A stretch of DNA of 35,934 nucleotides from Flavobacteriales bacterium. Lineage in GTDB: Bacteria; Bacteroidota; Bacteroidia; Flavobacteriales_F; PHOS-HE28. The notes beneath the pieces are model-generated. The model did not search any database, was not told the origin of the DNA, and saw nothing but the letters and a program-made list of their open reading frames with translations. This document shows, in pieces, positions 5,401 through 32,945 of this stretch (the stretch's first letter is position 1; each line of letters starts with the position of its first letter). The stretch is from contig JAEUTB010000053.1 of assembly GCA_016787995.1 (NCBI GenBank), forward strand, positions 1-35,934, written 5' to 3'. The position numbers and the translations under genes were made by a program.

Positions 5401-5475
<75 letters not shown>

Positions 5476-5479
5476 GAAA

Positions 5480-5504
5480 GGCGGTTCTGCGGAGCCGCCT
5501 TTTT
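5480..5504 (+). terminator. Rho-independent terminator of tRNA-Ala
   Basis: Stem arms GGCGGTTC (5480-5487) and GAGCCGCC (5492-5499), 8 pairs with one G-U, tetraloop TGCG, followed by TTTTT at 5500-5504. It starts 5 nt after the tRNA end. Confidence 0.85.
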
Positions 5505-5510
5505 CGTTCC

Positions 5511-5605
5511 TGGCTCAGTTGGCTAGAGCGTCCCGTCCGCCATACGGTGGACGAGAAGGTCACCGGCCTGCCTGCCGGAGGCAGGTTCGACTCCGGTATT
5601 CTCCA
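5511..5605 (+). pseudogene. Broken tRNA-like copy downstream of tRNA-Ala
   Basis: A D-arm-like segment (GGCTCAGTTGGCTAGAGCG) directly follows the first terminator, then an anomalous anticodon region, then the same T arm and acceptor 3' strand as the intact tRNA. It cannot be a working tRNA. The bases before the D arm (TCGTTCC) do not pair with ATTCTCC. The anticodon position is replaced by a hairpin with arms GTCCGCC and GGTGGAC and only an ATAC loop. The T arm is split after ACCGG by a 19-nt palindrome. It looks like a partial duplication, or a decayed neighbouring tRNA fused to the 3' end of tRNA-Ala. Confidence 0.7.
5567..5585. repeat. 19-nt palindrome inserted in the tRNA-like T arm
   Basis: CCTGCC (5567-5572) and GGCAGG (5580-5585) are perfect inverted arms around TGCCGGA. 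The intact tRNA 112 nt upstream lacks exactly these 19 bases, so the insertion boundaries are sharp. It resembles a short REP-like interspersed palindrome. No other exact copy was noticed in this window. Confidence 0.7.
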
Positions 5606-5640
5606 CGAAAGGCGGTTCTGCGGAGCCGCCTTTTTCGTTC
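5586..5640 (+). repeat. 55-nt direct repeat of the tRNA-Ala 3' end and terminator
   Basis: Bases 5586-5640 repeat 5455-5509 exactly (offset 131): the T-loop, acceptor 3' strand, terminator hairpin and T-tract. The second terminator has arms 5611-5618 and 5623-5630 with TTTTT at 5631-5635. Ten further identical bases (AGGTCACCGG) lie at 5557-5566 on the other side of the inserted palindrome, matching 5445-5454. Confidence 0.9.
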
Positions 5641-28250: not shown

Positions 28251-30152
28251 TTGAGCGACGCCATCAAGCACGAATGCGGGATCGCCATGATCCGCCTTCG
28301 TAAGCCCCTGGAATACTACCAACAGCGCTACGGCACCCCCCTCTACGGGCTTAACAAGCTGTACCTCTTGATGGAGAAACAGCACAATCGGGGCCAGGAC
28401 GGTGCCGGGGTAGGGTCGATCAAGCTGGATCCCGTACCGGGCGCCAATTACATCGACCGCAGCCGCAGCACGGATAAGCAGGCCATCCAGAAGATCTTCG
28501 AGCGCATCCACCGGGGCTTTGATGAGGCGGTGAAACTCGACCCCGCAGCGAAGAGCGATGCCCAAGTGCTCAAGCAGCACATGCCCTTCATGGGCGAAGT
28601 GCTCCTGGGCCACCTGCGCTACGCCACCTTCGGCAAGGATGGCGAGGAGAATTGCCACCCGCGCCGCCGCCTCAACAATTGGATGACGCGCAATCTGGTC
28701 GTCGCCGGCAACTTCAATATGACCAATGTGGACGAGCTCTTCGAACTGCTCGTCTCCATCGGTCAGCATCCCAAGGAGCGCAGCGATACCATGACCGTGC
28801 TCGAGAAGATCGGGCATTTCCTCGATGTGGAGAACGACCGCATCGCACACCTCCACCGCCAGTTGGGCTACTCCGAAAAGCAACTCACCCAGGTGATCTC
28901 GGAAAAGCTCGATGTGAAGCAGATCCTGATCAACAGCGCCTTGGATTTCGACGGCGGTTATGCATTGGCTGGCATGGTCGGCCATGGCGACGCCTTCGTA
29001 CTCCGCGATCCGGCGGGGATCCGTCCAGCATTCTGGTACGCCGATGAGGAAGTGGTGGTGGTGGCCAGCGAGCGCCCCGCGATCCAGACCGCCTTCGGCC
29101 TGCGCACTGAAGTGGTGAACGAACTCACGCCCGGCCATGCGCTCATCATCCGCAAGGATGGCACTTACAGCGAACAGAAGGTGCGTGAGCCGCTGGAAAA
29201 GCGCGCCTGCAGCTTCGAGCGCATCTACTTCAGCCGAGGAAGCGACCGCGACGTGTACCGCGAAAGGATCGCCTTGGGTCGTTCGGTATGTCCCGCTATC
29301 CTCGAGGCCGTTGATCACGACCTGGAGAACACCGTCTTCAGCTTCATTCCCAACACCGCCGAGGTGGCTTGTTACGGCATGCTGAAGGAGATGGAGGACG
29401 AGTTGGACCGGGTGAAGGAGCGTCGGATCCTGGAACTCGGTGCTGACCCCGACCCTGCGGAACTGCGCGCCATCTTGTCCTTGCGTCCACGCTTGGAGAA
29501 GGTGGCGATCAAGGATGCGAAGCTCCGCACCTTCATCACCGCCGACGATGCGCGCGATGATCTGGTGGCGCATGTCTACGACATCACCTACGGCACGGTC
29601 CGCCCGAATGTGGACAACCTCGTGGTGATCGACGACAGCATCGTGCGCGGTACGACCTTGAAGCAAAGCATCCTGAAGATGCTGGCCCGGTTGGAGCCCA
29701 AGCGCATCGTGGTGGTGAGCAGTGCGCCGCAGATCCGTTATCCGGATTGTTACGGCATCGACATGGCCAAGATGGGCGACCTCGCCGCGTTCCGCGCCGC
29801 GATCGCATTGCTCAAGGAGACCAAACAGGAGAACATCATCGATGATGTGTACGACCGCGCACTGGCGATGGTCGGTCGTCCGTTGGTCGAGCAGGAGAAC
29901 GTGGTGAAGGACATCTACAAGCCCTTCACCCCACAACAGGTGAGCGACAAGATCGCTGAGTTGCTGACCCCGGAAGACCTATCGATGGAGGTGAAGCTCG
30001 TATTCCAGAGCATCGAAGGGCTGCACGCGGCCTGCCCGGACCATACCGGCGATTGGTACTTCACGGGAGATTATCCCACACCGGGCGGCAACCGCGTGGT
30101 CAACAGGGCCTTCATCAACTACCGCGAAGGCAAGAACGTGCGCGCTTATTGA
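28251..30152 (+). CDS. purF: Amidophosphoribosyltransferase (PurF-type), long Bacteroidota form
   Basis: 633 residues from TTG 28251. This start gives (M)SDAIKHECGIAMIRLRKP, the sequence found at the start of Bacteroidota homologues. C9 aligns with the N-terminal nucleophile of Ntn-type glutamine amidotransferases; eight residues would have to be removed to expose it. The glutaminase domain shows QHNRGQDGAG, GHLRYATFG and GNFNMTN. The phosphoribosyltransferase domain shows the PRPP motif VVIDDSIVRGTT at about 458-469. The enzyme makes 5-phosphoribosylamine, the first step of purine synthesis. It is longer than the E. coli enzyme (505), with extra segments in the glutaminase half and a C-terminal extension. 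Some genomes carry this form beside a canonical PurF, so its exact role could differ. Confidence 0.85.
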   Translation: MSDAIKHECGIAMIRLRKPLEYYQQRYGTPLYGLNKLYLLMEKQHNRGQDGAGVGSIKLDPVPGANYIDRSRSTDKQAIQKIFERIHRGFDEAVKLDPAAKSDAQVLKQHMPFMGEVLLGHLRYATFGKDGEENCHPRRRLNNWMTRNLVVAGNFNMTNVDELFELLVSIGQHPKERSDTMTVLEKIGHFLDVENDRIAHLHRQLGYSEKQLTQVISEKLDVKQILINSALDFDGGYALAGMVGHGDAFVLRDPAGIRPAFWYADEEVVVVASERPAIQTAFGLRTEVVNELTPGHALIIRKDGTYSEQKVREPLEKRACSFERIYFSRGSDRDVYRERIALGRSVCPAILEAVDHDLENTVFSFIPNTAEVACYGMLKEMEDELDRVKERRILELGADPDPAELRAILSLRPRLEKVAIKDAKLRTFITADDARDDLVAHVYDITYGTVRPNVDNLVVIDDSIVRGTTLKQSILKMLARLEPKRIVVVSSAPQIRYPDCYGIDMAKMGDLAAFRAAIALLKETKQENIIDDVYDRALAMVGRPLVEQENVVKDIYKPFTPQQVSDKIAELLTPEDLSMEVKLVFQSIEGLHAACPDHTGDWYFTGDYPTPGGNRVVNRAFINYREGKNVRAY

Positions 30153-32251
30153 GCGGAGCTGATGCGTCCGCTCTTCCGTGCTTTGCGGTAGTGTTTGGCG
30201 CGTCCTTCCAAAGCCGCATCGCCATGCACGATGATGCGCGAGCCATTGTCGATCACGAGGCGGGCCTTGCGGGAGAGGAGCAATCGACTTCCAGGCAGCA
30301 GATGCAGCGTGCTGTTCTCCTTCAGTGCCAGCGTGGCTCGATCTTCCACGAGCAGGGAGGCGCCAGAAGCCACGGACATACGTGTAGGGTCGCTGAACCA
30401 GGGGCCGCCTTTGGATAGGTCCGGAGCATCCATGCGTGTTGGCGTGCGCGATCGATCCAGCGTGAGCTTGGCACCGCTTGCGATGGTAAGCGAATGCCCG
30501 TCCTTGCCGCGGAGCGGAGGAAGCGCGATGCTGTCCGCGCACCAGCGTTGATCGGTCCCCATCCGCGTATCGTTGGTGCTCACACGTACCACGGCATCAC
30601 CGTTGGTGCGCATCTCCAGCAGGTCCACGCGGATGCCGTTCAGGTGGATGGTGCGCACATTGGGGGCTTTACGGTCGTATTGGTCACGCGTGCCGTTGCT
30701 GAAGAGCGTGAGCATGTTCGCGCTGGAGGGGTTCGTGCACATGCCGATGCTGCGGACCCCGTTCATGCGGAAGGCATGGTCCGGACGTCCGAAGAGGATC
30801 AGGTCCTGGTCTGGCTTGCCCGACTCACTACGCACGCCAGGCACCCAATGCTCGCTGCGTTTGATGAGGCCATCACCATCGCGGTCATACACCGGCAACT
30901 CCTGCTCTTGGAAGCCGGTGAGCGGGTTCGCCGCTTTGGTGTCGCGTACGAAGTACATCGAATTCGTACCGAACGGACAGCTGTTGCGCAACGTGTCGCC
31001 CCGCAGGTACAGGTCGTAATTGCCGTTGGCGAGCACCGGTCGTAAATAATCCGCCGGACCGCCATAGATGCTGGCACCCACCCGCTCTTCGCGGCCCACC
31101 TGCATGGTCATGAACAAGCCGGGATCCATGCCGGTCACGCAGGTATTGATGCCTTCCCAGTGGAAGCGGTCCGTGGGGCTACCGTTGCGTTGCGATCCCT
31201 GGTGGTTCTCGATCCACAGCCATTGTTGTGCGCGGTCTTCGGGGATGAAGGGCATGCGGATGCGCAGGGCATCACCGCTGGTGACGAAGTCGCGCAGGAT
31301 GAACACACCGGTATCACCGGCGATCGGATCGAGGTCGGCGTTGATCTCCGCGCCTTGGAGAGATCGCGCCCGGATGCGGTGCACCGCGCCTTCGGGCATC
31401 CATCCCATGCGGTCGCGGTCCCAAGCGCTGCAGGTGAGCAAGCTGCTGCCGCTCGCGCCCATCATGCTCCAGCCGCCTTGCAAGGGCAGGAAGGTGCTCT
31501 CGAATTGCGCCGCATTGCCGCCACCGCTGTGGAAGTTGTTGCCGCCGAGCAGCAGATGGTTGAACTCGTGTTTGAGGATCTCGAACGGAAGGTCGTTCGC
31601 CGCACCGAAGCGCGATTGGGTATCGCTCTTGAAGCCATAGAGCTCCCCCGGTGATCCGCTATCGGTGCTACCCGTACCGTGCCGTAGGCCACTGTTGCGG
31701 ATGATCACCATCACATGATCATAACTGTGCGGATCATCGGGGCCGGTCGCTTTCGGTAGGCCAGCCTTGCCGCGCGCTTTCCAGAGGTCGAAGTCGGCGA
31801 TGCCAAGTCCGTGGCGCGTGCGGAGACTTCCCCGCTTGTTGGCCTCCTTCACGGCAGGTATGCCAATGGAATGTGCCTGATGCACGCTGGGGTACTCGCT
31901 CTCCTTCAGCGTGATGATGGTATCGATGTAGTCGCCGAGCACCGTGTACCGACCCAGGGAGATGTCCTGATAATAGCGGGACACCTCGGCCTGCTGCACC
32001 GGCAATGGATACGGGTCGAACACGCGATCTTTCCATTTGGGCAACTGCCCCTTGGGCCAATGGTCAGCGCCATTGGGCTGCGGATCCTTCTCCGGTTTCA
32101 CATCGTAGTCGATCTCCACGAATAGCACCAGGATCCGGATGGTGCCATGGGGCGAGAGGTACCAACCGTGTTCGCTGCGCTGCTCCGGCTTTTCCTGGGC
32201 GGCTAGTGCGAAGGGGAAAAGGAGCGCGAGAAGTAGGAATATCCTGCACAT
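30146..32251 (-). CDS. Secreted M6-like zinc metalloprotease-type protein
   Basis: 701 residues with signal peptide MCRIFLLLALLFPFALAAQ. The early strand TIRILVLFVEIDYD and QQAEVSRYYQDISLGRYTVLG are typical of immune-inhibitor-A/M6-like peptidases. The zincin motif is intact: H228, E229, H232 (ILKHEFNHLLLGGNNFHSGG), with H241 as a possible third ligand. The last 100 residues are repeated beta strands (SVASGASLLVEDRATLAL, GSRLLLSRKARLVIDNGS), which in related secreted proteins usually lead into a T9SS sorting domain. Here the protein ends in a basic tail (RKARKSGRISSAQ) without one. Its stop overlaps the purF 3' end by 7 bp. Probably an extracellular or periplasmic peptidase; 3' truncation is possible. 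Confidence 0.75.
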   Translation of the reverse strand: MCRIFLLLALLFPFALAAQEKPEQRSEHGWYLSPHGTIRILVLFVEIDYDVKPEKDPQPNGADHWPKGQLPKWKDRVFDPYPLPVQQAEVSRYYQDISLGRYTVLGDYIDTIITLKESEYPSVHQAHSIGIPAVKEANKRGSLRTRHGLGIADFDLWKARGKAGLPKATGPDDPHSYDHVMVIIRNSGLRHGTGSTDSGSPGELYGFKSDTQSRFGAANDLPFEILKHEFNHLLLGGNNFHSGGGNAAQFESTFLPLQGGWSMMGASGSSLLTCSAWDRDRMGWMPEGAVHRIRARSLQGAEINADLDPIAGDTGVFILRDFVTSGDALRIRMPFIPEDRAQQWLWIENHQGSQRNGSPTDRFHWEGINTCVTGMDPGLFMTMQVGREERVGASIYGGPADYLRPVLANGNYDLYLRGDTLRNSCPFGTNSMYFVRDTKAANPLTGFQEQELPVYDRDGDGLIKRSEHWVPGVRSESGKPDQDLILFGRPDHAFRMNGVRSIGMCTNPSSANMLTLFSNGTRDQYDRKAPNVRTIHLNGIRVDLLEMRTNGDAVVRVSTNDTRMGTDQRWCADSIALPPLRGKDGHSLTIASGAKLTLDRSRTPTRMDAPDLSKGGPWFSDPTRMSVASGASLLVEDRATLALKENSTLHLLPGSRLLLSRKARLVIDNGSRIIVHGDAALEGRAKHYRKARKSGRISSAQ

Positions 32252-32256
32252 CCCGC

Positions 32257-32264
32257 CGAAGGTA
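32257..32264 (-). promoter_or_regulatory. -7-like element abutting the metalloprotease start
   Basis: Minus-strand TACCTTCG lies 5 nt before ATG 32251, suggesting a transcript that starts at or very near the start codon. It sits just past the ancestral stop of the DUF2480 gene (32268-32270). Confidence 0.35.
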
Positions 32265-32267
32265 GTA

Positions 32268-32329
32268 CTAGCCTTTGGGTGCCTTGTACAACCGCACGGT
32301 GCGACGGCTCCCCGAACATCAGGCTCTTC
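32268..32329 (-). repeat. Duplicated, orphaned 3' end of the DUF2480 gene
   Basis: Bases 32304-32329 repeat 32405-32430 exactly (26 nt, inside the DUF2480 gene), and similarity continues through 32281-32303. Read on the minus strand, the orphan copy encodes SLMFGEP, then after a 2-nt frame difference VRLYKAPKG and a TAG at 32268-32270. That parallels SLMFGEP and VPLYKAPKP in the gene, so this is probably the original tail. Confidence 0.8.
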
Positions 32330-32339
32330 CTCGCGGATG

Positions 32340-32885
32340 TCACTCCGGGCTTGTCCCGGAGTCGCGTTGTGGCTTCGGTGCCTTATACAGCGGTACCGTG
32401 CTGCACGGCTCCCCGAACATCAGGCTCTTCACTACGGGCATCAATTTCGCGCTCAACTCCACGTAGGCGTTCAACGGCACAGGCAACTTGCTGCAGCCCT
32501 TCACCACCACGCGGGCATTTCGGTAGGGCTCCACATCCAGTTGCTGCACGAAGCGGGTGAACACGGCGCGTTCCAGCTGGTCCGCATCGCCTTGTGTGAC
32601 GAAGGCCGCGTACGGTTGCAGGTGCGTGGCCACCAGCATGAAGGCCCAGGTGGGGATGATCGCATCGGCACTGCAATGCACGCTGACGAACTTGCCTTGG
32701 TACTGTGCCCAGTCGTGCTCCTTGCAGAAGGCGCGCAGGTCATCCTCCTTCAGCGCGATCTCCTGCCACAACAGCGGCTTCAGGTCGAAGACCACGCGCT
32801 CGCCAACTGGGTAGATCTCTTCCAGATCAAGCGTGATGATCCCGCTGGAGGCGACCTTGTTGATGATGTGGCTTTCGTCGCTCAT
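32340..32885 (-). CDS. DUF2480 family protein with altered C-terminus
   Basis: 181 residues from ATG 32885 (an in-frame ATG at 32903 adds six residues). The sequence (INKVASSGIITLDLEEIYP, LKPLLWQEIALKEDDLRAF, SVHCSADAIIPTWAFMLVA, VVVKGCSKLPVPLNAYVEL, LMPVVKSLMFGEPCSTVPLY) fits DUF2480, a Bacteroidota family that commonly sits beside suf genes. Two cysteines (HCSAD and KGCSK) might relate to metal or sulfur handling; that is conjecture. The gene is 60 nt downstream of the DUF59 gene on the same strand. The C-terminal PKPQRDSGTSPE comes partly from a REP-like palindrome, replacing the likely ancestral ending APKG. Confidence 0.82.
   Translation of the reverse strand: MSDESHIINKVASSGIITLDLEEIYPVGERVVFDLKPLLWQEIALKEDDLRAFCKEHDWAQYQGKFVSVHCSADAIIPTWAFMLVATHLQPYAAFVTQGDADQLERAVFTRFVQQLDVEPYRNARVVVKGCSKLPVPLNAYVELSAKLMPVVKSLMFGEPCSTVPLYKAPKPQRDSGTSPE
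32342..32362. repeat. REP-like palindrome supplying the DUF2480 stop codon
   Basis: Perfect arms ACTCCGGG (32342-32349) and CCCGGAGT (32355-32362) around CTTGT. It resembles the short GC-rich REP palindromes dispersed in many genomes. On the minus strand it encodes the last residues of DUF2480 (DSGTSPE) and contributes to the TGA at 32340-32342. Confidence 0.75.
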
Positions 32886-32945
32886 GATAGGTCTGTTAGG
32901 CATTCATCTGCGAGATCTGCGAAATCGGCGGACGAGTCTTCCTCC

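Follow-up and report, generated by a model that had tools for sequence, protein, structure and literature searches.

Short REP palindromes carrying a CGTC tag occur in five phyla, Bacteroidetes among them, and REPs that lie inside genes, form C-termini and supply stop codons have already been published (PMC3733652). RPE-4 and RPE-6 of Rickettsia are filed as CGTC repeats in the same paper. In E. coli, REPs no more than 15 nt from a stop codon are reported to affect translation (PMC12306157).

We analyzed a DUF2480 gene whose last codons are supplied by such a palindrome, in a window of 35,934 nucleotides (the whole stretch of DNA that was analyzed) from a member of the Flavobacteriales. The gene adjoins an FeS_assembly_P gene and SufE (by Pfam, in the window). 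Its Pfam match (3.6e-69) spans residues 12-174, so that the REP-coded residues lie outside the DUF2480 domain. No mention of DUF2480 was found in the open-licence papers that were searched. The features of the locus are as follows (G numbers denote genomes, G000 being that of the window).

32340 to 32903, minus strand: DUF2480 gene (PF10652), 187 amino acids, C-terminus KAPKPQRDSGTSPE followed by the stop (open reading frame and Pfam).
32373 to 32430, minus strand: copy 1 of the gene tail, coding, ending in KSLMFGEPCSTVPLYKAPK; 26 nt exact.
32367 to 32369, minus strand: CAA codon at the presumed ancestral stop position; in G060, G067 and many loci that do not belong to the clade described below it is TAG.
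32338 to 32366, minus strand: REP element CGC-GACTCCGGGACAAGCCCGGAGTGACA, with predicted hairpin fold, including the in-frame TGA.
32330 to 32337, minus strand: 8-nt spacer TCCGCGAG from REP to copy 2; a similar spacer, TCCGCGGCG, in G063.
32268 to 32329, minus strand: copy 2 of the gene tail, outside the DUF2480 frame, ending AAG GCA CCC AAA GGC TAG in another frame.
32257 to 32264, minus strand: TACCTTCG box, recurrent in the genus, immediately 5' of the next gene's ATG.
30146 to 32251, minus strand: downstream gene, no Pfam match; its ATG lies 16 nt past the copy-2 TAG.

On the gene strand the order is thus copy-1 tail, CCA CAA, REP with TGA, TCCGCGAG, copy-2 tail KAPKG TAG, TACTACCTTCGG and the next ATG. 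The N-terminal part of the downstream gene adjoins DUF2480 in 36 of 40 loci.

A sequence-only reading of the window had described two versions of the DUF2480 3' end, about 100 nt apart and sharing 26 exact nucleotides. The pair is found at 32304-32329 and 32405-32430 with a measured spacing of 101, the second tail diverging past the exact stretch, and the window holds just one other direct-repeat family at the settings used (seed 16, length at least 22, spacing up to 400). In its own genome, which is 74% complete, the 26-mer has three copies at up to three mismatches, and its reversed control none. The further claim, that the palindrome encodes the last residues and the stop, is borne out by the 187-residue frame: ACTCCGGGACAAGCCCGGAGT at 32342-32362 supplies DSGTSPE, and the TGA at 32340-32342, in frame, is part of the REP. 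Elsewhere in the window, two exact 57-nt copies at 5453-5640, 131 nt apart, resemble tRNA 3' ends with a hairpin and T run, and are probably tandem tRNA genes.

By its sequence features the palindrome is a REP of the CGTC/TGTC type, a class already published. It is predicted to fold at -19 kcal/mol (z -4.2), with an 8-bp stem, a 5-nt loop and further outer pairs formed with flanking bases, in agreement with the stem and loop of the class. The reverse strand of the element begins TGTCACTCC, within the range of CGTC, TGTC or CCTC ends, and CGTC-ended variants are present in G003, G016 and G028. The unpaired CCA tail is absent, the gene strand reading CGC in the majority of copies (GCG from the other end) and CGG in some; this tail is not strictly required, because PMC3733652 states that "most" elements fit CCA. 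The palindrome had also been suspected to be dispersed and REP-like, and it is: the 21-nt sequence has seven copies in its own genome at up to two mismatches, and at up to three mismatches the REP occurs in 22 of 39 genus genomes, in 0 to about 16 places per genome, with no match for the reversed control in any of the 39. As to a cognate transposase that would mobilize the element, Y1_Tnp was found in 33 of 45 genomes, with none in G000 or G006; G003 has one at a distance of about 0.4 kb from a REP. A stretch of G003 (C1:1857887-1859153) holds a Y1_Tnp (RAYT-like) gene beside two CTGCGGG-variant REPs, a possible REPtron.

DUF2480 matches were obtained in 37 of 45 genomes, with two in G059, giving 38 loci within the genus. 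In a tree of four proteins, several inner nodes of which are weak (support 0.00-0.49), 16 of these loci form one clade with support 0.93. All eight loci with a recognizable REP (G000, G059a, G060, G063, G067, G024, G018 and G030, of which the diverged REP of G063 was recognized by eye) fall into this clade, for which random placement gives a probability of 0.0003, a figure that ignores relatedness. The REP has the same orientation and the same start point in all eight. Of the other clade members, three end in short extensions, possibly decayed REPs (G001, G011, G059b), two have other extended ends (G015, G066) and three stop one codon past KAPK, with other spacers (G034, G016, G061). Orthologs without the REP had been expected to end at the first tail. 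They do so in 21 of 22 loci outside the clade, which stop no more than one codon past KAPK (or KVPK, KAPR); the remaining one, G010, ends in KAPKAASSES. Nor is the RDSGTSPE-like ending broadly shared, as RDSG(S/T)SPE was found in four of the 38 congeneric loci and a diverged version in one more.

The codon at the native stop position is TAG in G060 and G067, with the REP (CGC or TGC GAC TCC) immediately behind it and the TGA in frame; G067 has an additional palindrome in the REP loop, through which the frame still reaches the TGA (read by eye). Sense codons stand at this position in G000 (CAA), G001 (CAG), G024 (TCG), G018 (TCT), G030, G011 and G059b (all GTA) and G063 (GTG), and in G059a the stop lies one codon earlier (TGA TCT CGC). 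Because the TAG is kept with the REP behind it in two congeners and replaced by sense codons in others, the DUF2480 extension most likely arose by loss of the stop codon into a REP with an in-frame backup TGA, and not by insertion into the tail. The native stop was perhaps lost several times. As a character on the tree the stop position takes six parsimony steps, whose direction is ambiguous at equal costs and fixed only if regain is costly; the TAG of G060 and G067 could thus have been regained rather than being ancestral.

The second tail is the less explained part of the case. It was detected in six of the 16 clade loci (G000, G059a, G060, G063, G067 and, as a remnant, G024), and was not seen in the 22 loci outside the clade within the approximately 200 nt displayed per locus. 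The 3' junction of this tail, in which KAPKx TAG is followed by the box, resembles that of the outside loci in G000, G060, G024 and G067, and is altered in G059a and G063. Copy 2 of G000, G059a, G060 and G063 reads CCGTCGCAC where copy 1 has CC(G/A)TGCAG(C/T)AC, a common 2-nt deletion that copy 2 of G067 lacks. We take the tail duplication to be old because copy 2 occurs in six of 16 clade loci, and in none of the six is copy 2 closest to the copy 1 of its own species, which is what an old duplication should show. A recent private duplication was rejected, as other species of the clade carry the same order. An assembly artefact was rejected as well, because the tail-REP-tail order is shared by the genomes of other species; for G060 and G059, a second collection contains the same copies as named MAG records.

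We infer the following scenario, which we consider probable as a whole. A CGTC/TGTC-type REP would have become fixed directly behind the DUF2480 stop codon, once, in an ancestor within this Flavobacteriales genus, in an orientation that put its own TGA in frame nine codons downstream of the native stop. Along with its arrival, the final ~60 nt of the gene would have been duplicated, to produce the order tail-stop-REP-tail-stop-box. Point mutation of the native stop would then have been tolerated because the TGA of the REP provided a backup, and each loss would have given DUF2480 a REP-encoded C-terminus, xRDSGxSPE. The distal tail copy would have retained the original junction with the next gene while decaying as coding sequence. 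The tail may have been duplicated when replication slipped or switched template at the hairpin, a guess that we regard as doubtful.

A single gain of the REP requires six losses, and equal-cost parsimony on REP presence prefers four changes. This preference would suit a DUF2480 3' end that is a REP hotspot with independent arrivals, sometimes accompanied by a long target duplication. Another recurrent site is known, the DapD loop, which holds a REP in 6 of 19 aligned congeners, and the variable REP copy number per genome points the same way. However, the junction after the stop position and the orientation are identical across loci, the 2-nt deletion is common to copy 2 of four loci, and G024 and G030 contain no REP copy at up to three mismatches other than that at DUF2480, which together make recurrent insertion unlikely.

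Copy 2 might have been kept because the promoter region of the next gene coincides with the DUF2480 tail, in which case an insertion would have been tolerated only if it also duplicated the tail. The TACCTTCG box, which presumably resembles the Bacteroidetes -7 element, suggests a promoter-like function, and its closeness to the ATG suggests that the transcript of the next gene may be leaderless or have only a very short leader. A similar box stands immediately 5' of the next gene's ATG in many species. A TAnYTTSG-like box starts 2-7 nt past the stop in 12 of the 22 outside loci, but the pattern was not found in 9. Copy-2 identity among G000, G059a and G060 (0.80-0.88) exceeds that at four-fold sites (0.63-0.73), a hint that copy 2 may be under constraint; these identities were, however, obtained with free gap placement within ~60 nt, and the pairs that involve G063, G024 or G067 show values between 0.63 and 0.89. 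Copy 2 is moreover absent in G018 and G030, which have the REP. Tail retention for the sake of a promoter is compatible with the scenario of stop loss into a REP, and we hold it to be quite unlikely as the reason for copy 2.

The sequence-only reading had the palindrome inserted within the tail and re-terminating it, with the downstream KAPKG as the gene's own displaced end. Taken alone, G000 gives this impression: one reading frame passes through the tail into the REP, on the far side of which KAPKG TAG is found. But all clade members have a full-length copy 1, reaching KAPK (or KRPK, KKPK), and the native TAG precedes the REP in G060 and G067; there are therefore two tails and not a single split one, and insertion within the tail is highly improbable. 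The KAPKG tail is out of frame, as had been described, but is better seen as a duplicate that retained the original 3' junction than as the original tail itself. Equally improbable is an origin of the tail copies as att-like duplications from an integrative element that targets the DUF2480 3' end, with the REP arriving later: G042, of another family, does repeat the final ~75 nt of DUF2480 ~0.8 kb downstream (L107), an XRE-type regulator lying between the copies and no REP being seen, but only REPs and short spacers, without integrase or cargo, separate the copies in any clade member, and 60 loci from named genomes outside the genus gave no flagged tail duplication within 800 nt.

A link between REPs and gene-end duplication was also sought beyond DUF2480. 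Flank scores of at least 16 were reached at five loci among 112 REP copies versus 68 of 7270 REP-free positions (binomial p 0.004 with n = 112; p 0.09 counting only three clear gene tails), while the median was 8.0 for both REP copies and random sites. The five loci are DUF2480 (which contributes five high-scoring copies, in G000, G059a, G067, G060 and G024), a GIY-YIG gene in G067 (a tail-REP-tail-REP tandem with a 171-nt unit), a WecB-like gene in G018, L316 in G067 (a duplicated 47-nt unit) and the array L104. For the WecB-like gene, G018 scores 20.5 and the other 29 genus loci examined no more than 11.0; a search of the G018 genome for a donor of the spacer matched only the locus itself. 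This modest excess over random sites is suggestive only. That REPs generally bring long target duplications is unsupported, most of the 112 flanked copies showing none. At L311 of G067, the two REPs near 1059 and 1230 belong to a near-identical 171-nt tandem of GIY-YIG-like tail plus REP, apparently recent, and L104 (G006:C75) is a tandem array of ~100-nt units with two different REP-type palindromes per unit.

REPs were also found in frame inside Pfam domains, in an Lhr-like helicase (also in G000, L088), DapD, FAD_binding_5, Aminotran_5, AlaRS, MoaE and a ketosynthase, and as the C-terminus of at least four other proteins: IPPT (MiaA-like), a TPP-enzyme, GIY-YIG (two species) and AHSA1. These assignments are based on open frames and Pfam, with REP positions relative to domains worked out by hand. 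An automatic gene-context classifier barely separated the strands, so that its labels were not used, except to help pick the 22 loci for the Pfam scan. Loci with no Pfam match were left out of the counts (L050, L073 and L115, with frames ending in the REP; L090, L095); L065, L071, L074, L092 and L109 were not counted as within a domain, and L064 was read by likeness to L088. For DapD, 30 loci were fetched and 19 aligned after a motif filter; the REP always occupies one loop, which is shorter in the other congeners, so that here, as in RPEs, a palindrome lies in frame in a conserved protein and is absent from some orthologs. Across L128-L148 this loop, between RVAEP and VNEWVKKA, carries species-specific inserts, including an apparent second palindrome of CTCGG type, and is an insertion-tolerant hotspot.

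More broadly, an in-frame REP behind a stop codon might act as a ratchet, in which the TGA makes the native stop dispensable, the same gene loses its stop in one species after another and acquires xRDSGSSPE as a stereotyped tail, and the hairpin also promotes gene-end duplication that spares the neighbor's promoter; we consider this generalization rather unlikely. The DUF2480 case itself is well resolved, but the gain is in detail and not in principle, because the general phenomenon has already been published. What it adds is a multi-species series in which the C-terminus of one protein was apparently rewritten by a short dispersed palindrome, with candidate intermediates still visible (stop kept, stop lost, palindrome decayed), and RPE-like in-frame palindromes across a Flavobacteriales genus, for example in DapD, AlaRS and the Lhr-like helicase.

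Our search of the open-licence literature (titles and abstract starts) found no paper on REP-linked gene-tail duplication with stop loss. The closest described elements are the CGTC-tagged REPs, which share with ours a stem of 8-9 bp, a loop of 4-5 nt and a CGTC or TGTC end, but differ in copy number, which is low here (0-16 per genome); the main text of PMC3733652 does not describe a stop-loss series or a tail duplication, and the string "duplicat" is absent from it, whereas a tail duplication and a probable series of stop losses are present here. The stop-proximal REPs of E. coli (PMC12306157) are alike in position, the DUF2480 REP lying directly behind the native stop; the effect on translation was reported for the E. 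coli elements. The Rickettsia RPE-4 and RPE-6 (PMC3733652, PMC10969869) are likewise in-frame palindromes in unrelated proteins, but belong to a different phylum, and the elements of the genus studied here are mostly single units of ~30 nt.
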